Virus record (IMG/VR): IMGVR_UViG_3300007775_000137 | Location: 1 to 52,788 of that record | Length of the DNA: 52,788 bases | Strand: one strand, 5' to 3' | From: a virus | Shown: in pieces, positions 3,963-50,287 of the stretch | Layout of the letters: each line of letters begins with the position of its first letter | How positions within the stretch are numbered: the first letter of the stretch is position 1 | Notes under the pieces: generated by a model | Told to the model about the DNA's origin: nothing | The model's input: the letters and a program-made list of their open reading frames with translations, nothing else | Databases searched by the model: none | Translations under genes and position numbers: made by a program

Positions 3963-4808
3963 CTAAATCCATTCTTCAACAATTGACTTTGTTGTCTTGT
4001 CGAATGACGTAACAAGCTCCATATAGCCGCGCTTAATTGGCTCCCATTTCATAATCTTCTCGATTACAAAACGTCCAACTTCCTCTTTCCCCGTTGCCAT
4101 AATTAAGCCACAGCGCAACGGCGGACGGTAAAAGTTATCATTTTTTTGCCAACCATAATCAGGCTGATTTTCAAGACTGGCAGTCAATGTCAAGCCAGCA
4201 TCATATTTACGGCGCATCATTGGATTAGATAAAGTTTCATAGGCATCTTGCACTTTACGAAACATTTCATCAGCATCATCATCTTTGCATACGTCGGGAT
4301 GGAATCGTTTAGCCATGCGCCGATAACCTTTTTTAATTTCATCATCCGTTGCATTGCGGGAAACAACCAACAAACCATACAGGGTTTCGTAATTAGATTT
4401 TCCAGTTTGACCACCAATGCCACAATCAAACCAATCTCGCAAAACATCCTCTGAACATACAGTATTCCAATTGCCATCAAAATCTAAAGCAAATGATAGA
4501 TTGTTACCACCGCCGCGATCTTTTGGTGCGCCTATGTATTTCACTCGTAAAAGCTTAACAATCGGCCCTGTGTTTTCCGGTTTTGGCACTCCGATAACAT
4601 CAGGATAATTGCCGAAATGAACCATGCTCAAATCATCCAAAAGTTTCTTATGGCGGTTGTGAACCAGCCAATGACTAAATTTACCATTGACATATGCAGG
4701 TTGCCTTTCATTTTGCGGTATTTTGCTTTTCAGGCCGGCAACTAATCCCTTGTCATAAGGCGAGTAGTATTCTATACCCTGTATAGTGTGTCTAATTTCT
4801 AGTTTCAT
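3963..4808 (-). CDS. DnaJ-domain protein
   Basis: 281 aa from ATG 4808. A J domain lies at about residues 160-225: YETLYGLLVVSRNATDDEIK, then KRFHPDVCKDDD with the essential HPD tripeptide, then DAYETLSNPMMRRKYD. The 160 residues before it and the C-terminal 55 match nothing I know. J domains stimulate host DnaK, and lambda uses this to start replication; the position beside recombination genes fits a replication role, but that is inferred. The start overlaps the Lar-like gene by 17 bp. Confidence 0.8.
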   Translation of the reverse strand: MKLEIRHTIQGIEYYSPYDKGLVAGLKSKIPQNERQPAYVNGKFSHWLVHNRHKKLLDDLSMVHFGNYPDVIGVPKPENTGPIVKLLRVKYIGAPKDRGGGNNLSFALDFDGNWNTVCSEDVLRDWFDCGIGGQTGKSNYETLYGLLVVSRNATDDEIKKGYRRMAKRFHPDVCKDDDADEMFRKVQDAYETLSNPMMRRKYDAGLTLTASLENQPDYGWQKNDNFYRPPLRCGLIMATGKEEVGRFVIEKIMKWEPIKRGYMELVTSFDKTTKSIVEEWI

Positions 4809-9543: not shown

Positions 9544-9789
9544 TTAATCAACTGTCCTTTGTCGGGCAATAATGTACTTATAGGCCAATTCTAGATCAAT
9601 GTGACCGCGTTTAATTCCTTCCATTACTGCCTCTGTTTTGTTGTGTACATTATAAATCCTATAAATAGAATGCAGATTATTTTTCACAGTTTGATGATTG
9701 ATTTTGAGTATAGCAGCTATTTCCCTGTTGCTCAAACCACCAGCAACAAACTGCAAAATCTTTTGCCGATGGGGGGTTAGTGTTGGCAT
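9544..9789 (-). CDS. LuxR-type HTH protein, DNA-binding domain only
   Basis: 81 aa. LTPHRQKILQFVAGGLSNREIAAILKINHQTVKNNLHSIYRIYNV is a complete GerE/LuxR helix-turn-helix at residues 4-49, with no receiver or sensor domain. Such stand-alone domains act as transcription regulators. It is coupled (TAATG) to the M23 peptidase gene and is the last gene of the late lysis operon, so it might act as a late or feedback regulator. Confidence 0.8.
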   Translation of the reverse strand: MPTLTPHRQKILQFVAGGLSNREIAAILKINHQTVKNNLHSIYRIYNVHNKTEAVMEGIKRGHIDLELAYKYIIARQRTVD

Positions 9790-26261: not shown

Positions 26262-26297
26262 AAAAAAGCCCTCAACTCGCCTGACGAGTTAAGGGCT
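26262..26297 (-). terminator. leader hairpin/terminator before the tail tube gene, UCAGG loop
   Basis: AGCCCT-TAACTCG / CGAGTTG-AGGGCT stem around the loop TCAGG, then TTTTTTG and the GGAGG of the tail tube gene. The loop sequence is shared with hairpins at 44940-44967 and 48642-48675, each directly before a structural operon. Confidence 0.7.
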
Positions 26298-26326: not shown

Positions 26327-26355
26327 ATTATAAATTAAGCAGGGCTATTTGTAAA
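26327..26355 (-). promoter_or_regulatory. promoter of the tail operon
   Basis: TTTACA (26355-26350), 17-bp spacer, TATAAT (26332-26327) on the minus strand. A copy of the dispersed motif (26360-26367) abuts the -35. Transcripts start about 60 nt before the UCAGG hairpin. Confidence 0.6.
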
Positions 26356-26356
26356 G

Positions 26357-26530
26357 TTACCCGGTATTGCGCTTTGTTTTTTTGCCAAACCAAATAACAA
26401 AGAAAAAACAGAGAAAATCTAAAGATGCAGAAAAACGCCAATTACTATATTTAGTCGTGGCAATCTGAAAACCAACACCCCATGAAGACATTTCACAAAG
26501 CACATTGGCTTCAAATAATTTAGTTTTCAT
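26357..26530 (-). CDS. small hydrophobic protein
   Basis: 57 aa from ATG 26530 (ATGA overlap with the adaptor gene). A single hydrophobic segment FSASLDFLCFFFVIWFG is followed by a basic tail KKTKRNTG. No family recognised. The tail-operon promoter begins within its last codons. Probably a small membrane protein. Confidence 0.5.
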   Translation of the reverse strand: MKTKLFEANVLCEMSSWGVGFQIATTKYSNWRFSASLDFLCFFFVIWFGKKTKRNTG

Positions 26531-38655: not shown

Positions 38656-38858
38656 TAAAATTTATCCTCCCGCAAAACAACATTTTTAACAGCATCCAAT
38701 CTGTCTTTCAAATTGTTAACACGCCGCTGTAAGCTATTATTTTTAAGCCGCAATTCTCGATTGTCTTTAATGACCATCAGAACATCATGCAGTTCACCAT
38801 CATATGAATTAAGGGACTTCTCAGCCGCATTAATTAATCTATCTTCGTAATCATCCAT
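38655..38858 (-). CDS. coiled-coil hypothetical protein
   Basis: 67 aa from ATG 38858 (CAGGAG upstream). Helical with a leucine pattern in ELRLKNNSLQRRVNNLKDRL, a likely short coiled coil. Function unknown. Overlaps the RHH gene by eight bases. Confidence 0.6.
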   Translation of the reverse strand: MDDYEDRLINAAEKSLNSYDGELHDVLMVIKDNRELRLKNNSLQRRVNNLKDRLDAVKNVVLREDKF

Positions 38859-39030
38859 TTTCTTTTTTCTCCTGTTGAAAATCTGATAAATCATCCCGCC
38901 GTTGCTCCACTATTTGCCCAAGCAAAAATAAACACTCTCTATTAAATGAGCGTAAATCTTTACCCGCTAAATGTTGGATTTTTTCGTAAAGCTCTTGGGG
39001 GATGTATAAATTATGACGTACTGTTTCCAT
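38851..39030 (-). CDS. Arc-like ribbon-helix-helix protein, probably leaderless
   Basis: 59 aa from ATG 39030. TVRHNLYIPQELYEKIQHLA is strand plus first helix; SFNRECLFLLGQIVEQRRD the second. No ribosome site precedes the ATG. The -10 box ends seven bases upstream, so transcription should start at the A of ATG (leaderless mRNA). Likely regulator of the operon 39.0-28 kb, which begins here. Confidence 0.7.
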   Translation of the reverse strand: METVRHNLYIPQELYEKIQHLAGKDLRSFNRECLFLLGQIVEQRRDDLSDFQQEKKENG

Positions 39031-39036
39031 AGTGCC

Positions 39037-39066
39037 ATTGTAGCACAGGTATATTGTAGATTGCAA
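39037..39066 (-). promoter_or_regulatory. promoter of the RHH-exonuclease-glycan operon
   Basis: TTGCAA (39066-39061), 18-bp spacer ending TGC, TACAAT (39042-39037). The extended -10 and the distance to ATG 39030 predict a leaderless transcript. The -35 abuts a terminator. Confidence 0.65.
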
Positions 39067-39093
39067 CAAAAAAGCCACCATGTATTGGTGGCT
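39067..39093 (-). terminator. terminator after the 83-aa gene
   Basis: AGCCACCA / TGGTGGCT 8-bp stem (39073-39080, 39086-39093) followed on the minus strand by TTTTTTG. It ends the short operon 39582-39128 right before the next promoter. Confidence 0.85.
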
Positions 39094-39127
39094 TATTTGA
39101 TCATAAGATTTCAAAAGAAAAATCGAC

Positions 39128-39626: not shown

Positions 39627-39655
39627 AGTATATACTAGTTTATAAACTATGTCAA
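39627..39655 (-). promoter_or_regulatory. promoter with AGTTTATAAACT operator in the spacer
   Basis: TTGACA (39655-39650), 17-bp spacer, TATACT (39632-39627). The spacer is largely the palindrome AGTTTATAAACT (39637-39648). The same arrangement occurs at 45144-45172. A bound repressor would block polymerase directly. Confidence 0.75.
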
Positions 39656-41777: not shown

Positions 41778-43259
41778 TTACGCCGGTAGATTCCAGTCTG
41801 AGAAATAGCTTGGAGCTGCTCTCTCTGTAGTTATGCCACCATTTACAAAATAGTAATCATCCGGAACCGCGTCACGGAAATGCTGGAGAGGTTCGTAGCA
41901 AACATTCTGCAAACGTCCTGCGAGTTGAGGCGTTCTCAAAATCACACGAGGACGAATCTGAGCATTCCATTGTACACAGGACTGCGTAGGCGGCTCTTTA
42001 TGCCATAAGAAACGGCCAGCGTCAGACCAAAAATCTTGGCTTAGGCGACCGCCAGAAATGGCAGATTGAAGCGCATCATTGCCGTAGTTGAACACTTCCC
42101 AGAAGGTCACAGGAGTGCCACCCCGTACGGTCATCGGAATAAGATAGATGTCACTTGCAAATTGACCATCTACCAAATTCGCGCCAGGAGTGCCGCTAGA
42201 TTCTTCAACGATAAATGAATCCTGAATAACCGGAATGCGCTGCCCGTCAATTAGCAAGAATGAACCGTTACGCATTTCATCACTAAATCGACGCTGTGCA
42301 TCACCGTCAACAAATACCCGCGCATTGTCGCCAATGACCTCGCAACGGTCGGTATTGTATTGGCAAGGCCAAACGTCGGTTAATTCAGTAAACAAGTTTG
42401 GGTTCATTGTGAAAACCCAGCTAACCTGCCCGAAATTCATTGTCCTTGCATTATAACGGACATAACGATATATCGCATGAAGTGTACGAACGATGCCGCT
42501 GCTTAACGTGGTATCATCCACACAACCATAATTGAAGTTCTTAATGTCGGAGTCAAGCGCAGGACAATCAGTGCCAGTCAATGCGTCAACTTTGCTAGTA
42601 CCAACCAGCAAATCTAGGCCAGGGAATTCGTTACCCGTTCCCGTTCCGGCATAAACCTGTTCGCCTAATTCGCGCTGGAAACTTACACCAACTTCAATCA
42701 GTCGTGACATAAAGTCCATTGCCAAAACATTAGCCTGTCCACTTGGCAAACCGCCAAACAAACCAGTAGCAAAATCATTTACCAATGGGCTATTTACGAT
42801 ACGCAAATCCATAAACTCGCCACGATCAATTACTTCACCTAGCCGATTCAAATCAATGGCGCGTGTCTCAAAACCGTAACGGCCAAATTGTGCCGTCTGA
42901 ATACAGTTTTTGATTGCACCAGCTACCGGAAAAGCTCCACATGGATCGGTTGTTGGGTCTGGCTGTGAACCATTAGACGCTTGAAACCCTGTAATGTAGC
43001 CATAAAGAGGATTAGTCTTTACAGACAAACTAACAGGCAACATTGAAGCAATCCCATCGCCATTGATATGGCTAGAGAAAATGTCACGCTCTAAACCAGA
43101 TACGCCAAACAAACCGCCAGGGCCATGCAAAAATGGCACACCGGGAGTAGATGGAGCGGCCTTATACCCCTGCGGAAAGCTGCCCCATTTTTGTTGATTA
43201 CCGCCTGCCATACTAGCCAGGGCAGTAGCCAACTGATTTACATCAATCATATTGCTCAT
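41778..43259 (-). CDS. major capsid protein, HK97 fold
   Basis: 493 aa, ATG 43259 behind GGAGG. Long loop-rich N-terminus, then the spine-helix and beta-hinge region NDFATGLFGGLPSGQANVLA, RLIEVGVSFQRELGEQVYAG and the P-domain FTMNPNLFTELTDVWPCQYN. AGTGTGNEFPGLD is the segment common in HK97-like capsids of the unusual large type. Size, order after protease/scaffold, and its own strong terminator all fit. Several Cys suggest stabilisation. Confidence 0.8.
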   Translation of the reverse strand: MSNMIDVNQLATALASMAGGNQQKWGSFPQGYKAAPSTPGVPFLHGPGGLFGVSGLERDIFSSHINGDGIASMLPVSLSVKTNPLYGYITGFQASNGSQPDPTTDPCGAFPVAGAIKNCIQTAQFGRYGFETRAIDLNRLGEVIDRGEFMDLRIVNSPLVNDFATGLFGGLPSGQANVLAMDFMSRLIEVGVSFQRELGEQVYAGTGTGNEFPGLDLLVGTSKVDALTGTDCPALDSDIKNFNYGCVDDTTLSSGIVRTLHAIYRYVRYNARTMNFGQVSWVFTMNPNLFTELTDVWPCQYNTDRCEVIGDNARVFVDGDAQRRFSDEMRNGSFLLIDGQRIPVIQDSFIVEESSGTPGANLVDGQFASDIYLIPMTVRGGTPVTFWEVFNYGNDALQSAISGGRLSQDFWSDAGRFLWHKEPPTQSCVQWNAQIRPRVILRTPQLAGRLQNVCYEPLQHFRDAVPDDYYFVNGGITTERAAPSYFSDWNLPA

Positions 43260-43261
43260 AT

Positions 43262-44926
43262 TTATCCTCCACCCAAATTAAATAGGTTACTTGCCCAGCT
43301 TTCATCTGGTTTAGAATTCTTAAATGTTTCTTTTTCTTTTTCAGTTACAACGGTTGCTTTTTCAGCACTTGCCCGAAAACCACCCATCCAGTCAATACCG
43401 GGTACTTTTGGTGCAAGTTCATTAGCCATCTTTTGATCGTCAGAAAGTTCTAAGGCTTCCAACCGCTTAACCACATTTTCAATTGCCGTTGCATTGGCAG
43501 AATTAGACTCATTAAGCGTTTTAATTGCCTCATGCAGTCCAGCGGGATTAAGCTGCTTTGTTACCAAATCGGCTACGCTTTTTGCTAAATCTGCGGTATT
43601 AAGAACAGCTTCAACTTCTGATTCAGTAGCCTGAATTTCCTCTACCAAAACAGCATCGGCGGGAATTTCCTTACTGCCAGCAATCGAACCATCAGCTTTA
43701 CCACCACCAATTGCGCCATCTTCTTTTTGCTTACTTTGAATTCCTGCACTTTCGAGAACTTCTGCGCGTTGCTTGGTTCCATCTTCCAGCGCATTGGCAA
43801 AATCCTCGCCATGCAATTGTGCCAGCATTTGACGCTGGTCATTTGTGAGTGCCATATTTCCTAGCTCCTTAACATTAAATTCAGTCCACGGATTAGCCGC
43901 TGCCCTGCGAGGTAAAACCGTAGCCTCAAAAGTTCTGTACTTATTAATCAAATTTTGTTGCTTGCCCAAAACGTAAAAACCATGCGACATCCCCAAATCA
44001 TCGCTTACGTTATCAAATACCTTTGCCTCTTGTTCTGTCAGTTTCCCCCCAAGAATTAAGAAGCCATTTAGATATGCCCAGAAGTCTGCTTTGCTTTCCC
44101 TCTGCGTCCCTGGTGTATGATAAGTCCATAGTTGCGGCGCGGCTTTAGGATGTGCGTCAAGCCATGCGATATAATCTTTGTGCGCTTCATCGGTAAGAAT
44201 CTCCCCTTCCCGATCCATAAACTTATTTGATACCCAACCTAGCCAACGAAATGAGCCGTCAACAGCTTTTAATACTTTGAACCCGGTATTGTGAGGTGAA
44301 TCAAAAACAGACTCATTGCGGGAAACGTCTGCCGTTTCTTTTGAGTCTTGCAATTTCTGCAAATATACCGGGTCTAATTTCCCGTTAATCGTTGGAATGC
44401 TGATGGTACGCTCCCCACGTTCAAAATCAGCATCAAGGCGCATACGCATCTCTTCTGTTAAATTTCGCAATGCCGCCGAGCGGTCTGTCGGGTCAATGGC
44501 TGGATTCTGAGTAATGTTACGCGCCAGTCGCATGAAGTTGTCAACAATTCGGCGCAGCTTGCCATGTTGTTCTTGCGCCTGTTCAATAGTGTCTAATTCA
44601 GAAAAAGACATTGCGCCCATGACAGGATCGTAATAGTCCATGCTTTCACCTATGCCATGTTCCATTTTTGAAGCGTCAACATACGCCATTCCAGCATTTG
44701 TTGTTGTCACAGATTCAACCTTTGCTGTTTGTTTTCCAACTTGAACAAAATTAGCAGAATCTTCTGTTTGCTTTTCGTTTTCAGTATCCATAGCTTTTCC
44801 AATTGAAGAACGGCATATAGCGATAGCTGCGCTTTTGTCTGTTTCACCACCTGCCATAACGCGCTCTACGCATCTATCTATTTTGGCCTCTGCGGCTGAA
44901 CCTGCCGGTATTCCTGAATATGGCAT
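43262..44926 (-). CDS. prohead protease-scaffold protein
   Basis: 554 aa. Residues 1-50 (CVERVMAGGETDKSAAIAIC) match a segment often at the start of phage protease/portal proteins. The protease core is FRWLGWVSNKFMDREGEIL, LWTYHTPGTQRESKADFW and VSDDLGMSHGFYVL, giving the His and Ser of U35 prohead proteases. The C-terminal ~200 residues are helical and acidic (TESEVEAVLNTADLAKSVAD) as in a fused scaffold. ATG 44926 lies seven bases after a terminator-like T-run, with no free SD. Confidence 0.8.
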   Translation of the reverse strand: MPYSGIPAGSAAEAKIDRCVERVMAGGETDKSAAIAICRSSIGKAMDTENEKQTEDSANFVQVGKQTAKVESVTTTNAGMAYVDASKMEHGIGESMDYYDPVMGAMSFSELDTIEQAQEQHGKLRRIVDNFMRLARNITQNPAIDPTDRSAALRNLTEEMRMRLDADFERGERTISIPTINGKLDPVYLQKLQDSKETADVSRNESVFDSPHNTGFKVLKAVDGSFRWLGWVSNKFMDREGEILTDEAHKDYIAWLDAHPKAAPQLWTYHTPGTQRESKADFWAYLNGFLILGGKLTEQEAKVFDNVSDDLGMSHGFYVLGKQQNLINKYRTFEATVLPRRAAANPWTEFNVKELGNMALTNDQRQMLAQLHGEDFANALEDGTKQRAEVLESAGIQSKQKEDGAIGGGKADGSIAGSKEIPADAVLVEEIQATESEVEAVLNTADLAKSVADLVTKQLNPAGLHEAIKTLNESNSANATAIENVVKRLEALELSDDQKMANELAPKVPGIDWMGGFRASAEKATVVTEKEKETFKNSKPDESWASNLFNLGGG

Positions 44927-44932
44927 ATAAAC

Positions 44933-45069
44933 AAAAAAAGCACCTATTCGCCTGACGAATTAGGTGCAATAAATAATTGGTATTCAATTAGTCCTGGCAA
45001 TCCCGCTACTGCCACCGCGCCTTAAGGCTCTTGTCTGCGTTTCACACTGTCGTAGCTAGTCAGATTGCC
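44933..45069 (-). ncRNA. structured leader RNA with terminator before the capsid operon
   Basis: Predicted 5' end near 45069 starts with GGCAAUC, which pairs exactly with GAUUGCC (44996-45002) to close a 74-nt domain. Inside, GCUAC pairs with GUAGC, and GCC-UUAA-GGC forms a small hairpin. After a 28-nt linker comes a terminator (GCACCTAATTCG / CGAATAGGTGC, loop TCAGG, 44940-44967) with seven T. The gene ATG follows at 44926. The layout is that of a riboswitch or attenuator: aptamer-like domain, terminator, coding start. It is not tRNA (no T-loop). Confidence 0.65.
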
Positions 45070-45075
45070 ATTACG

Positions 45076-45105
45076 ATAATAACATAATATCTGGTTATGC
45101 GTCAA
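45076..45105 (-). promoter_or_regulatory. promoter of the structured leader / capsid operon
   Basis: TTGACG (45105-45100), 18-bp spacer, TATTAT (45081-45076). The expected start is at or next to the first G of the 74-nt RNA domain. Confidence 0.65.
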
Positions 45106-45143: not shown

Positions 45144-45172
45144 TTGACATAGTTTGTAAACTGTGATAATAT
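45144..45172 (+). promoter_or_regulatory. promoter with AGTTTGTAAACT operator in the spacer
   Basis: TTGACA (45144-45149), 17-bp spacer, TAATAT (45167-45172). The spacer holds AGTTTGTAAACT (45151-45162). It drives the only plus-strand gene in the middle of the genome. Confidence 0.75.
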
Positions 45173-45208
45173 TAAGGCAATTCAGAGATAACTAACAGGA
45201 GATAAAAA

Positions 45209-45412
45209 ATGTACGAAAAAATCACGGTATCCAAAACAGTATCAAATGAAGTAGGAACAATTGAAATTGTAAAGTTTAAGAAAGTAGGTACAAAAAGAAC
45301 ATTCTGGGCTCCAGAGTTTGAAGGAAAACGAATCAATAGCACAATGTACGGCGAAATGGGACAAGCTACCAAATTAGCTAAAAAGTTTTTAATCTGGAAA
45401 GCAAATCAATAA
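45209..45412 (+). CDS. small plus-strand protein under operator control
   Basis: 67 aa with AACAGGAGATAAAA before the ATG. Basic and beta-rich: YEKITVSKTVSNEVGTIEIV, KFKKVGTKRTFWAPEF, ATKLAKKFLIWKANQ. No family. It is a one-gene unit with its own promoter, operator and terminator, against the direction of all neighbours. That is the usual form of a lysogeny or moron-like gene; it could also be a regulator or an anti-defence protein. Confidence 0.75.
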   Translation: MYEKITVSKTVSNEVGTIEIVKFKKVGTKRTFWAPEFEGKRINSTMYGEMGQATKLAKKFLIWKANQ

Positions 45413-45419
45413 AACAATT

Positions 45420-45444
45420 AGCCACTCGCAAGAGTGGCTTTTTT
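45420..45444 (+). terminator. terminator of the plus-strand gene
   Basis: AGCCACTC-gcaa-GAGTGGCT followed by TTTTTT, seven bases after the stop codon. Confidence 0.9.
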
Positions 45445-45637: not shown

Positions 45638-46123
45638 TTATGAGGATGCCTTTTTGATTGCTTTGCGAACTTCTTTTACTAATTCAGGTTGTAATTGCTC
45701 TGCTATTACAATGTCAAATTCACGCGCCGTTGTACCGGGATGATGTACTATTTTTGCACTTACCATTCTGCCCGAACTTCCTCCACGCCTCGATCCAATT
45801 TTACGCGGTGTCGTTTTAGAAGTAAAGCCAGTTTGAAAACGTAAAGCAGGAGCGCGTTTAGGCGTAATAACATGCGGCTTAGTACCTCTCACAACATAGC
45901 CATAAATCTCATCCATCGTCGAAACGACAGCTACCAATTTACTTGACGTTGCCCTGTCAACCTTAAAGTCTGGCTTTCGTTTCCAAGTGGCTACTGTTTT
46001 GCCAAATTCACGCTCTGCTTTTTTGATAATATCGTTTAGGGTTTTGGCAGACTCCCTATCAAATTTATCTAGGTCGAATATTTTACCTTTTGGTGTAATT
46101 GAGCGTAGGATTATTTGTGCCAT
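45638..46123 (-). CDS. HK97 gp10-like head-tail completion protein
   Basis: 161 aa. Helical start with FDLDKFDRESAKTLNDIIKK, then DEIYGYVVRGTKPHVITPKR (the Y-V-x-x-GT-PH-I-P segment typical of phage minor tail/gp10-like proteins) and PGTTAREFDIVIAEQLQPEL. These proteins join head to tail. It is coupled to the portal gene by TAATG. Confidence 0.65.
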   Translation of the reverse strand: MAQIILRSITPKGKIFDLDKFDRESAKTLNDIIKKAEREFGKTVATWKRKPDFKVDRATSSKLVAVVSTMDEIYGYVVRGTKPHVITPKRAPALRFQTGFTSKTTPRKIGSRRGGSSGRMVSAKIVHHPGTTAREFDIVIAEQLQPELVKEVRKAIKKASS

Positions 46124-48621
46124 TAAACACCTGTGAGCGGTTCATCAGTTTCTACCCAACTACATTGGCACAGCCAGCCGCCGCAATCTAATTCGTGACT
46201 TTTTGGATATGTTCCTAAAGCTCGCCATTGACTACGGGTGAGAACACGCTGGCTATTATCTAGGCAAGAGTTACAATGATCGGTTGGCCCTAAAGCCCAA
46301 CCAATATGATCTTCATCATCTCCACCACGTAAAAACCCAAGCGCGTAAACAGCCAGTAAACCAACTCCCCAAAGCGTTACACGATTATCAATCAGTTCAT
46401 CAGTAGGCGTATCCTCATCACCACCAAAAGCAACAGCCGATAAATATAAACCCGGTATAGCGTCAAGGTTCACTTCTGTTTGGTCTGATATGATTTGCCG
46501 ATCCTCATCTGTCAATTGCGCTATGGTTTTGCCGCTTGCCAAAAGATACGTATTAATAATTTCAGCAGCAACCAATGATTCAGCTTCAATTCTGAACTCA
46601 TCTTCTGTAATTGTACCATTGGCAGCTTCCGCCATTAAGTCAGCTAATTCTGATTCATAATCCGCTGTATCAATTTGTTTGGTTGTCTTTTTTTTTATGG
46701 AACCCTGTATGGTGGTGTGGCTCTCCCCCTTGTCAGAATAAACCAACTCGCCAGATACGCGCATACCATTAAGAGGATTGTCAAGTTTTAGGTATTTCTT
46801 ACCCATACCGGGTTTAAGATATGCAATAGTCATATGTGGATTGTAGGTTGGATGTGTATCCTCGTTTGGCAACTGACTAACAATTGCATTCATTTGCCGT
46901 AATTCTGCCCCGTCAACATTCAACTTCAATACATCAAAATCATCATTCTGGAATAATGCCAAATTGCCAATTTTTATAGTAAGTGGCAATAGTTTTTGAA
47001 TCTGTGAAGTAATTTGCTTTGGTGTCACACTATCCAAAAATCCATACTTAACTGTTACATGGGAATCTGTCACAATTGGTGAACTTGACCATGATTCTGG
47101 TGGCTGAAACAAATCATCACTATCTAAATTAGCAGCAATTAACGAAGCGGCATGTCTAATATGATCAGGCATCATTAACATTAAGCATCCATATTCTTCA
47201 TTTTCCTTCGCTCTAATTTCCGCTGGTATCTGTTCCGGTTGCATTTCTGCCGTATCGGTTGACGGCGTATTGTTTGCCTCATTTAGTTCTGATTCAGTTG
47301 CGGCTTGCTCATCATCCGTTGCCACAATATCGGGTGTCACATCTGTAGTATTCAAAAGTGCCATGTACTCAGGCTTTAAGATGCCTTGGTCTGCCATCAT
47401 TTGATGGATAACTGGCAACGACAAAATGCCTTGACCCTTATCATAATAAGTTGAAAATGTTTTTGCCTGTTTATCTTCTAATTCAGCAGCTTGAATATCT
47501 GACTCAATGTCTTTTTCATCAAAAGCAAATGTCACCGATTGCGGCATGATGCCATTAAAATTTAGTTTATGTTCCCATAGCTTGACATCAGTTTCGCGCC
47601 CTTTGCCGCGTGACTTACGGTCTAGCACGTCACTTTGTTGACCGCTGCCCAAGCTGCCAGATGATAATGGCGCAAAATCCTGATAATCAGCACCAGCGGC
47701 CATTGCAATTTGGGCAATGTACCAGCGCAATGTAGTATCCTCGTCGAATCCATCAGGAACACTACGCAAGTCGATTGAAGCCGTGCTAACAGTCGAATTA
47801 GGGTCAAGACTACCAATAATCGTTGGCAACATGAAACGGCTATAGCCTTGATTGTCGGCACTCATTTGGTCATCGGCTAATTTGTCGTTGATTAGTTTAG
47901 TCTGAACACCTGAAACAAAATGTATCTCGCCAGGATTACGCCCTGCTATTTTTTCCCGTTTATAGATTCCAAAGTCTTTTATAATTTGGGCTGCTCTTAA
48001 GACGCGACTTAAGAAGCAAACCTGCAAACTATTCATTTCCTCAATTGGCGACGGCATATCCTCAAAAGTCAATACCTGATACCATGCTAATTTATGCTCT
48101 ATGCCATCACGATCCCAGTAAATGACAGGGGTTTCGGGGATGCCAGTTCTTACGCATCTACCTGCGTCCAAATGCGCTAGATTCAATACCGGGCTATTTG
48201 GCGCGTCTTCTTGCCGAATGACTTCTACAAATGCGCCATTGTCTTGTGTTAGTTGGTCAGTAAGTACTTTAATTCTTAGGTCAAGCCAGCCTTTGCCCAA
48301 GTTGGATGACTGTAGCATACGCTGCAAAATGCCAACCGTGCGAGGAGGCCCGTCAAGCGACCATGACATATTGGCACGCGCTGCCACAATCGTTTGAATG
48401 GCACTTGCTATAATCGGTTCAGTAGGCCAAAACCCCCGCAGCTTCCTATCACGTAATCTGACATTGCGTCCCCAGGCTGGCAAGTCATCAGCAAATGACG
48501 AAACATTGATAACAAAAACATCACTACCCGGTATTGTTTGTTGGTCTGGTATCTTTTGAACCGTACGATCCAATATCCGATCATCTATGAGTGCTTTTTC
48601 TTGCGTACCATTTTTGGTCAT
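46123..48621 (-). CDS. portal protein fused to a 2H phosphoesterase and a minor-head-like C-terminus
   Basis: 832 aa from ATG 48621 (a TTG at 48642 is inside a hairpin). Residues ~20-430 are a phage portal: FWPTEPIIASAIQTIVAARA, DQLTQDNGAFVEVIRQED, WYQVLTFEDMPSPIEEMNSL. Residues ~470-640 form a 2H phosphoesterase (2'-5' RNA ligase-like) with SHVTVKYG (His 521) and PHMTIAYL (His 596), both HxT motifs intact. The C-terminal ~170 residues end with GPTDHCNSCLDNSQRV and CGGWLCQCSW, resembling SPP1 gp7/MuF-type minor head proteins. Such a triple fusion is unusual. Confidence 0.8.
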   Translation of the reverse strand: MTKNGTQEKALIDDRILDRTVQKIPDQQTIPGSDVFVINVSSFADDLPAWGRNVRLRDRKLRGFWPTEPIIASAIQTIVAARANMSWSLDGPPRTVGILQRMLQSSNLGKGWLDLRIKVLTDQLTQDNGAFVEVIRQEDAPNSPVLNLAHLDAGRCVRTGIPETPVIYWDRDGIEHKLAWYQVLTFEDMPSPIEEMNSLQVCFLSRVLRAAQIIKDFGIYKREKIAGRNPGEIHFVSGVQTKLINDKLADDQMSADNQGYSRFMLPTIIGSLDPNSTVSTASIDLRSVPDGFDEDTTLRWYIAQIAMAAGADYQDFAPLSSGSLGSGQQSDVLDRKSRGKGRETDVKLWEHKLNFNGIMPQSVTFAFDEKDIESDIQAAELEDKQAKTFSTYYDKGQGILSLPVIHQMMADQGILKPEYMALLNTTDVTPDIVATDDEQAATESELNEANNTPSTDTAEMQPEQIPAEIRAKENEEYGCLMLMMPDHIRHAASLIAANLDSDDLFQPPESWSSSPIVTDSHVTVKYGFLDSVTPKQITSQIQKLLPLTIKIGNLALFQNDDFDVLKLNVDGAELRQMNAIVSQLPNEDTHPTYNPHMTIAYLKPGMGKKYLKLDNPLNGMRVSGELVYSDKGESHTTIQGSIKKKTTKQIDTADYESELADLMAEAANGTITEDEFRIEAESLVAAEIINTYLLASGKTIAQLTDEDRQIISDQTEVNLDAIPGLYLSAVAFGGDEDTPTDELIDNRVTLWGVGLLAVYALGFLRGGDDEDHIGWALGPTDHCNSCLDNSQRVLTRSQWRALGTYPKSHELDCGGWLCQCSWVETDEPLTGV

Positions 48622-48641
48622 AAACTTTACCAGTAAGCGCA

Positions 48642-48675
48642 AATAGCCTAACCCCGCCTGACGGAGTAGGCTATT
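48642..48675 (-). other. leader hairpin of the portal operon, UCAGG loop
   Basis: AATAGCCTA / TAGGCTATT outer stem with an inner CTCCG-TCAGG-CGGGG hairpin, about 20 bases before the portal start. There is no long T-run. It shares the UCAGG loop with 26262-26297 and 44940-44967. An AT-rich promoter-like stretch lies upstream (48680-48705). Confidence 0.6.
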
Positions 48676-48708: not shown

Positions 48709-48738
48709 CAAAAAAAGCTCCATCGTAAAGACAGAGCC
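48709..48738 (-). terminator. terminator downstream of the CRISPR array
   Basis: On the minus strand GGCTC and GAGCT pair around a 13-nt loop and are followed by TTTTTTTG. It lies 30 bp beyond the last repeat and only works for minus-strand transcription, which supports the array being read in the same direction as the TnpB-like gene. Confidence 0.75.
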
Positions 48739-48768
48739 TGTAAATATTAATTAGAGTTTTGGATCGTA

Positions 48769-48982
48769 CAAACTACCCACGCGCCTGTAGGATAAACTTG
48801 GCGTTGAAAGTTAGCCGCTTGTGAAGTAGCAAACCACCCACGCGCCTGTAGGATAAACGTGATTTCGTGCTACAATAGCTCATGATGATTCCAAACCACC
48901 CACGCGCCTGTAGGATAAACGAGGAGTGAGAAATGGAAAATGTGACAACTTTTCAAACCACCCACGCGCCTGTAGGATAAAC
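48769..48982 (-). CRISPR. mini CRISPR array: four 29-bp repeats, three spacers
   Basis: Repeats at 48769-48797, 48830-48858, 48892-48920 and 48954-48982; spacers of 32, 33 and 33 bp. Three repeats are identical. The one at 48769 has a single change (C to T at its sixth base) and is therefore the likely distal end of the array. Read on the minus strand the repeat begins GTTTATCC and ends GGTGGTTTG, and CCUAC pairs with GUGGG (one G-U) around AGGCGC. Mutated distal repeat, terminator and hairpin all favour minus-strand transcription from the TnpB side. The length pattern is also that of type I-E arrays, and the plus-strand end GGATAAAC recalls their repeats, so use of host Cascade is the alternative. 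Confidence 0.9.
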
Positions 48983-49083
48983 CCTTGAGTATTACCCCTA
49001 TATACAGTTGTTAAGTGGGTGTACATATGAGTTACCCCATATGTGCTGGTGGTCTTAATACCGAAGTATGCCACCTTCCTGAT
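48983..49083 (-). ncRNA. structured RNA between TnpB-like gene and array (omegaRNA/tracrRNA/leader candidate)
   Basis: In the 101 nt between the stop codon and the first repeat the minus strand can form GGTGG...CCACC enclosing ATAC-TTCG-GTAT (UUCG tetraloop, 49048-49075), then ACATATG-8 nt-CATATGT (49023-49044). CACCCAC (49021-49015) is complementary to GTGGGTG in every repeat, a 7-nt anti-repeat. In TnpB systems the omegaRNA lies exactly here, at the 3' end of tnpB, and guide sequence follows. The region ends ACTCAAGG before the repeat; TCAA is the right-end cleavage site of IS608. Confidence 0.6.
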
Positions 49084-50262
49084 TCACAGTGAGCGTTCAC
49101 TACCGCCCAACTCCACAGGCAATTCCCCGCGCTTCACAGGTTCAGCTAAAGCCGCTAAATTCATAGCAGCATTAAGGTCTCTATCCATTTCTGCCCCGCA
49201 ATCAGGGCATTTATAAATCCGCATGGCTAATGTCAATTCAGAATTGATACAGCCACAGGAGCTGCATGTTTTGGAAGATGCAAACCATCTATCCGCTTTC
49301 AAAACCTCAATCCCATTCCATGCTGCTTTATATTCAATTTGTCGGTGCAATTCAGACATTGAAGCATCACTAACGGCTTTAGCCAGATTGTGATTTTTAA
49401 CCATGCCCTTAACGTTCAAATCTTCAATGACTACCACCGAAGGCCGTTTATGTTCGGTTACATACTTGCTTACATTGTGCAGGTTATGCGCCCGTTTGTT
49501 AGCTATCTTTTGGTGAAGCTTGGCAATCTTAGCTTTTGTTTTGGTCCGGTTAGAACTGCCTTTTTCACGTCGTGATAATTCGCGCTGTAAACGGGCTAAC
49601 TTTTTCTCGTATGTTTTCAGCACCTTGTCATTAGGAAACTCTTTCCCATCTGAGCAAACCGCCAATGATTTAATGCCAACGTCAACGCCTAGCGGTTCAC
49701 CCATTGCCGGTACGGGTTCGTCTGTTTCTTGTTCGACTTGAAAGCTAATAAACCATTCCCCGGCACTTTCCGAAAGTGTCACAAAGTTTATTTTTACATC
49801 CTCTGGAATATAATTAGATTCAGCTAAATTTACCCAACCAATACGGGGTAACTTAACACGCCCATTTTCAACACGAATAGAACCACGTAAAACAAATGAT
49901 TGCTTGTCTTTGTATCTGCTTTTGAATTTCGGAAATCCTGTTTCTTTGCCGCCTTTACCCTGTTTAATGCGACGGAAAAAGTTTTGATAAGCAATGTCCA
50001 CATGGTCAAACTCTTCTTGCATTATGCAATATGGGTATTCACGAATCCATGGACAAATCTCATCTTTGGTAGCATTAAAACGCCTCTTTTGCTCAAACTT
50101 GTTTGGTTTACCGCCAGCTTCATAAGTGGCGATCCTATCGGCCAACGCCCAATTAAAAACATACCGAGCAGCTCCACAACAGCCGCCAAAATAACGCCGC
50201 TGCTTTGCGGTTGGTCTAAGTTTTGTCTTGTAGGCTTTTAAAATCGTGATATGATTTATCAT
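49084..50262 (-). CDS. tnpB: TnpB/Cas12-like RNA-guided nuclease
   Basis: 392 aa from ATG 50262 (AAAAGGA upstream; TTG at 50280 overlaps that site). It has the HTH/helical N-terminus KLRPTAKQRRYFGGCCGAAR and FPKFKSRYKDKQSFVLRGS, then RuvC-I PLGVDVGIKSLAV, a Lys/Arg-rich bridge, RuvC-II VVVIEDLNVKGM, the zinc finger CSSCG...CPDCG, and RuvC-III EMDRDLNAAMNLA. The D-E-D triad is intact, so it should cut DNA. No TnpA is adjacent. Downstream are a structured RNA and a CRISPR array in the same direction. That pairing recalls minimal type V-U/Cas12 systems, which arose from TnpB. Confidence 0.9.
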   Translation of the reverse strand: MINHITILKAYKTKLRPTAKQRRYFGGCCGAARYVFNWALADRIATYEAGGKPNKFEQKRRFNATKDEICPWIREYPYCIMQEEFDHVDIAYQNFFRRIKQGKGGKETGFPKFKSRYKDKQSFVLRGSIRVENGRVKLPRIGWVNLAESNYIPEDVKINFVTLSESAGEWFISFQVEQETDEPVPAMGEPLGVDVGIKSLAVCSDGKEFPNDKVLKTYEKKLARLQRELSRREKGSSNRTKTKAKIAKLHQKIANKRAHNLHNVSKYVTEHKRPSVVVIEDLNVKGMVKNHNLAKAVSDASMSELHRQIEYKAAWNGIEVLKADRWFASSKTCSSCGCINSELTLAMRIYKCPDCGAEMDRDLNAAMNLAALAEPVKRGELPVELGGSERSL

Positions 50263-50287
50263 GCTTCGATTCCTTTTCAATCGGAGG

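Follow-up and report, generated by a model that had tools for sequence, protein, structure and literature searches.

Two elements are needed in a transcriptional riboswitch, namely an aptamer and an alternative fold in competition with the terminator. The put RNA of phage HK022 binds the zinc-binding domain of the RNA polymerase β′ subunit. Structural operons are controlled through antitermination by the Q proteins of lambda and phage 21 (PMC6606751), and a gene-transfer-agent cluster is likewise subject to antitermination, by GafZ (PMC11150451). The putL element of HK022 is about 70 nt long and is located directly after its promoter, with the put RNA forming two adjacent stem-loops (PMC9378689).

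The DNA compared here with these systems is a viral stretch of 52,788 nucleotides, corresponding to IMG/VR virus record IMGVR_UViG_3300007775_000137 (hereafter, the window). On its minus strand, reading toward lower coordinates, a promoter is followed by a leader, an intrinsic terminator and the ATG of a gene for 554 amino acids. The features of this locus, together with those of two further sites that share the apex of the terminator hairpin, are as follows.

45076-45105, minus strand: promoter TTGACG-18-TATTAT, identical to the consensus at 10 of 12 positions
44995-45070, minus strand: folded leader domain of 76 nt (the 74-nt domain of the earlier note), from fold prediction, starting at the predicted +1
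44974-44990, minus strand: linker rich in A and U, forming a weak hairpin of 6 bp, from fold prediction
44940-44967, minus strand: hairpin of the intrinsic terminator, CGUCAGGCG at its apex, -14.0 kcal/mol, d = 32.6
44933-44939, minus strand: U7 tract of the terminator, read from the sequence
43262-44926, minus strand: protease/scaffold-like gene, 554 amino acids, named by gene order, no family match
41778-43259, minus strand: putative major capsid gene, 493 amino acids, good Shine-Dalgarno sequence, named by gene order
26327-26355, minus strand: promoter TTTACA-17-TATAAT of a second promoter-terminator-gene arrangement, read from the sequence
26268-26297, minus strand: second terminator hairpin with the CGUCAGGCG apex, -21.2 kcal/mol, d = 45.9, immediately 5′ of a tail gene for 508 amino acids
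48643-48674, minus strand: hairpin with the third CGUCAGGCG copy, ahead of the portal ATG at 48621, U-tract absent, d = -26

The earlier note had described a consensus promoter and a strong terminator at this locus, with the start codon seven bases beyond the T-run, and had argued that the terminator must be overridden if the head genes are to be made from this promoter. Both signals were recovered. The promoter has, in addition to its 10 consensus positions, a TG-extended -10 element (TGTTATTAT), and the hairpin at 44967-44940 with its U7 tract is strongly supported as a terminator by the d'Aubenton-Carafa score (d) of 32.6, with most of its stem pairs having probabilities of 0.97-1.0. The ATG at 44926 does lie close behind the T-run, at a distance of six bases rather than seven. 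A second, weak promoter (TTGCCA-16-AATTAT, 9/12) is present immediately upstream of the terminator hairpin and was not favoured, and no promoter was found between the terminator and the protease-like ATG. Transcripts of the protease and capsid genes that start from the promoter at 45105-45076 must therefore pass the terminator, and the layout thus supports the argument for an override. Directly upstream of the head promoter, on the opposite strand, a 67-amino-acid open reading frame (ORF; 45144-45439) with its own promoter and terminator resembles a moron-like insertion and is absent from the close relative described below. The palindrome AGTTT-NN-AAACT, of which three exact copies were found (1209-1220, 39637-39648 and 45151-45162; 0.14 expected), lies in each case within or beside a TTGACA promoter, as an operator might.

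Family searches gave no support for the identity of the protease or the capsid protein, and the portal itself showed only a weak family match (phrog_146, E = 0.0068). Given that the structure predictions for the protease-like (pLDDT of 37.5) and capsid-like (pLDDT of 30.0) proteins were too poor for use, these two names rest on gene order beside the weakly supported portal. The protease-like gene has no Shine-Dalgarno sequence, and its MP[FY]SG start is also found in three distant relatives (L031, L035 and L038). The portal polypeptide (46123-48642) contains a 2′-5′ RNA ligase/phosphodiesterase-like domain at residues of about 528-610, in a region that is conserved in the close relative too, and an IS605 OrfB/TnpB-like gene is located upstream of the portal gene at 49084-50280.

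One close relative was found in the collections searched, contig IMGVR_UViG_3300022562_000910 (entered in our set as L004, L005, L006, L008 and L030, and referred to here as L008), with identities to the window of 67% for the portal, 86% for the first 317 residues of the capsid-like protein and 55% for the protease-like protein. Between its portal block and protease gene, L008 contains a promoter, a hairpin, a U7 tract and a nearby ATG in the same order as in the window. When the 191-nt region of the window was used as a query, two pieces matched L008: the promoter (17/17 nt) and the segment from the terminator to the start codon (83% over 46 nt). The terminator d-scores are 32.6 and 31.1-32.1, the -35/-10 spacers of the two genomes share the 3′ part ATTATGT, and the promoter 16-mer TTATGTTATTATCGTA has an identical copy in L008, which was the sole relevant contig among the 18 that a search of IMG/VR for this 16-mer returned. 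In L008, about 40 nt of unrelated leader sequence separate the promoter from the hairpin, with no trace of the folded domain. Since L008 keeps the promoter and terminator without the domain, the conserved unit appears, from these two genomes, to consist of a promoter, a short leader and a terminator hairpin whose CGUCAGGCG apex does not vary, and the domain appears, on the comparison with L008, to be a lineage-specific insert.

We also counted how often such an arrangement occurs, defined as a terminator with a promoter of at least 10/12 consensus positions 10-120 nt before it and an ORF of 100 amino acids or longer within 40 nt after it. It was found for 2 of the 16 terminators in the window and for one of three in L008. 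Unrelated viral contigs totalling 373 kb had 27 terminators, none of them so arranged. Four distant relatives that have both genes (L031, L035, L038 and L039; portal identity of 42-46%) showed no such arrangement before their protease or tail genes; L031 has a promoter 62 nt ahead of a terminator upstream of its portal gene. In L038, a tRNA-Met gene (L038:12170-12238) occupies the gap between the portal and protease genes, where the window carries the folded domain.

The window has exactly three copies of the apex CGUCAGGCG, all of them on the minus strand and each in a hairpin just 5′ of a structural gene, these genes being the portal gene, the protease/capsid genes and the 508-amino-acid gene, which we call a tail gene for its position shortly before the tape-measure gene. 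With the L008 copy there are four hairpins, throughout which the 9-nt apex is identical, and in the stems four of ten pairs have compensatory changes on both sides with pairing retained. By score, two of the window copies and the L008 copy are terminators, with T6-T7 tracts; the portal-side hairpin is not a terminator. A covariance model gave 46-56 bits for the four hairpins, at most 18.5 bits elsewhere in 12 related sources and at most 15.3 bits in 28 unrelated sources; given that it was built from the same four hairpins, the informative part is the gap to all other sites. A pattern search of IMG/VR for the hairpin returned L008 and one chance match, antisense within an ORF. The presence of the same apex before the portal, head and tail genes suggests that the structural operons share a signal. 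The region before the portal gene also contains a terminator at 48715-48739 (and at L008:8453-8473) whose loop, CUUUACG, doubles as the -35 element of the next promoter-like site.

The folded domain was predicted to be closed by a helix of nine pairs, UGGCAAUCU/GGAUUGCCA, in which 45070-45062 pairs with 45003-44995, the outermost pair having a probability of 0.80 and the others 0.87-0.99. Given that the predicted +1 falls at about 45071-45068, within 1-2 bases of this helix, the proposal in the earlier note that the domain begins at the transcription start agrees with our prediction, as does its remark that the domain has no T-loop and no class that it recognised: neither a tRNA nor a tRNA-like cloverleaf was found, ARAGORN reporting no tRNA in the window, and the leader had no match in Rfam 15 at the gathering level. 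When E values of up to 10 were admitted, only sub-threshold noise appeared, the best being L10_leader with 19.1 bits against a threshold of 44. The inner helix GCUAC/GUAGC that the note had drawn has a probability of only 0.07; the favoured fold has CUA/UAG stacked on GCUAC/GUGGC, with probabilities of 0.67-0.84, and a small GCC-UUAA-GGC hairpin, which together form a single nested stem, imperfectly paired and branched at its tip. Reading the domain by eye for a leader peptide gave only MAI-stop and a seven-codon GTG frame, with no Shine-Dalgarno sequence. A blastn search with the leader against 50,697 phage records yielded only chance matches and no relative of the domain, and the 21 IMG/VR contigs that contain a 15-mer of the domain were all unrelated, with likeness limited to short stretches.

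The leader as a whole is more stable than its shuffles (z = -3.1), with the terminator supplying much of the excess. For the domain with its exact ends, z was -2.2 and 7 of 200 shuffles were equally stable; removal of two bases from its 3′ end abolished significance (z = -0.8). A 5′-anchored helix of at least eight Watson-Crick pairs arose in 2 of 2000 shuffles, and one of at least nine pairs including G-U in 36 of 2000, these tests on the domain and the helix having been chosen after the helix had been seen. The domain is modestly supported above chance, whereas support for the terminator is strong.

We tentatively propose, at slightly less than an even chance, that the head operon has a promoter-proximal attenuator similar to lambda pR′-tR′, which is opened by antitermination. 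Host RNA polymerase would initiate at the promoter at 45105-45076 and make a short leader. By default it would halt at the CGUCAGGCG hairpin and U7 tract, releasing an RNA of ~135 nt; late in infection, a phage or host factor would let it past the terminator and into the protease and capsid genes. The logic would be that of lambda pR′-tR′ with Q, and the structural operons might share one coordinating signal, with the apical loop perhaps being what is recognised. The 5′-terminal helix of the 74-nt domain might protect the RNA or, less likely, aid antitermination in cis. In favour of this attenuator are the order of promoter, terminator and start codon kept in L008, the lack of the arrangement among the 27 terminators of unrelated contigs, and the invariant apex. 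Against it stand the portal hairpin, whose lack of a U-tract means that not every copy of the hairpin terminates, and the distant relatives L031, L035, L038 and L039, which have no terminator of this kind before the protease or tail gene. Leaky readthrough, too, would account for this layout, and no switch would then be needed.

Lambda and phage 21 resemble the window in having, before late or structural genes, a promoter, a short leader RNA and an intrinsic terminator, with a short terminated RNA as the default. They differ in that the terminators of the window are repeated ahead of different operons, the apex being the same each time, and that its ATG is 14 nt past the hairpin; no Q homologue or Q binding element was recognised. 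Among the small proteins scanned, none matched an antiterminator, and the only matches to transcription regulators were a LuxR/sigma-region-4-like helix-turn-helix protein (9544-9789) and a weak Arc-like protein (38851-39114). The GafYZ system of the Caulobacter gene-transfer-agent cluster likewise has capsid-type genes behind a terminator and requires an antiterminator, as we propose for the window, but its terminator follows the first gene, whereas that of the window directly precedes it.

A somewhat unlikely alternative is that the promoter and terminator delimit a free-standing phage small RNA of ~135 nt, its 5′ end sealed in the 9-bp helix, with protease and capsid made by leaky readthrough and no dedicated switch. 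Sealed 5′ ends and strong 3′ terminators are typical of stable small RNAs, and the window has other closely spaced promoter-terminator pairs that no long ORF follows, for example from 1207 to 1109. An RNA product would, however, need its sequence to be kept, and not merely its promoter and terminator, and in L008 the leader is ~40 nt long and unrelated.

Less probable still is that the hairpin works after transcription, as a 5′ untranslated element that either makes the mRNA more stable or serves as the binding site of a protein controlling late-gene translation, with termination at the U-run being incidental. The portal copy, which retains the apex without a U-tract, fits such a role, as do the positions of the hairpins about 14-22 nt from structural-gene start codons and the lack of a Shine-Dalgarno sequence at the protease and portal genes. 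The T6-T7 tracts and high terminator scores of two window copies and of L008 would nevertheless be needless for a translational operator.

The folded domain could itself be a put-like RNA that acts in cis to make polymerase resist the terminator 28 nt downstream, although we consider this improbable. Its size and placement are those of HK022 putL, which is also a folded RNA of about 70 nt made from the promoter of a phage operon with terminators after it. Rather than two adjacent stem-loops of about 70 nt in all, however, the window has the single nested, imperfect and branched stem described above, and this before a head operon, not an early one; the phage records and the IMG/VR contigs sharing a 15-mer contained no homologue, and in L008 the terminator is present without the domain. 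The role of the domain is perhaps protection of the RNA 5′ end or that of a put-like element.

The proposal in the earlier note that a ligand-binding transcriptional riboswitch controls the head terminator is scarcely credible: the window does have a folded domain between promoter and terminator, and then a coding gene, as riboswitches and other attenuation leaders do, but the mutually exclusive fold and conserved aptamer of such systems are missing, no Rfam class was found and no homologue in the phage records or the IMG/VR contigs sharing a 15-mer, and the part of such a leader expected to be conserved is the one that senses the ligand, whereas here that domain is dispensable, gone from L008. 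Forbidding the terminator in folding cost 13.3 kcal/mol and the best alternative left the domain unchanged, so that the two are predicted to fold independently with no competing antiterminator.

Other sequence features of the window were also recorded. An 11-bp motif, ACCC[TG]GTAT[TG]G, is dispersed over its whole length and on both strands (for example, 4375-4385, 26359-26369 and 46702-46712). Its exact form is present 35 times, where shuffles give an expectation of 0.07; with an iterative weight matrix the numbers are about 85 against about 5. L008 has three copies (0.01 expected) and the distant relatives none. The spacing is stoperator-like or uptake-signal-like, and the motif is probably more surprising than the finding at the head leader. 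A CRISPR-like mini-array at 48769-48989 comprises four 29-nt repeats (GTTTATCCTACAGGCGCGTGGGTGGTTTG, minus strand), which resemble type I-E repeats, and three spacers of 32-33 nt; a 21-mer of the repeat had no exact match in genome contigs, and genome scans for a host with the portal and with this repeat found nothing. The intergenic region 914-1477, which has two minus-strand promoters (11/12 each) and a terminator at 1127-1109 but no ORF of at least 100 amino acids, is possibly a small RNA region.

If the attenuator reading is right, this locus is a case of a strikingly folded RNA being dispensable in a leader while selection acts on the ordinary-looking terminator. An extension of the attenuator that we regard as unlikely, though not far-fetched, is a clade-specific late regulon, in which a phage factor recognises the apical loop CGUCAGGCG and so switches the portal, head and tail operons on or off as a group, the 74-nt RNA being a cis module added at the head operon. 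If the attenuator itself works as proposed, a lineage without isolated relatives in the phage records searched would coordinate its structural genes through one shared leader hairpin, and its antiterminator could be sought directly through its affinity for a loop of 9 defined nucleotides.
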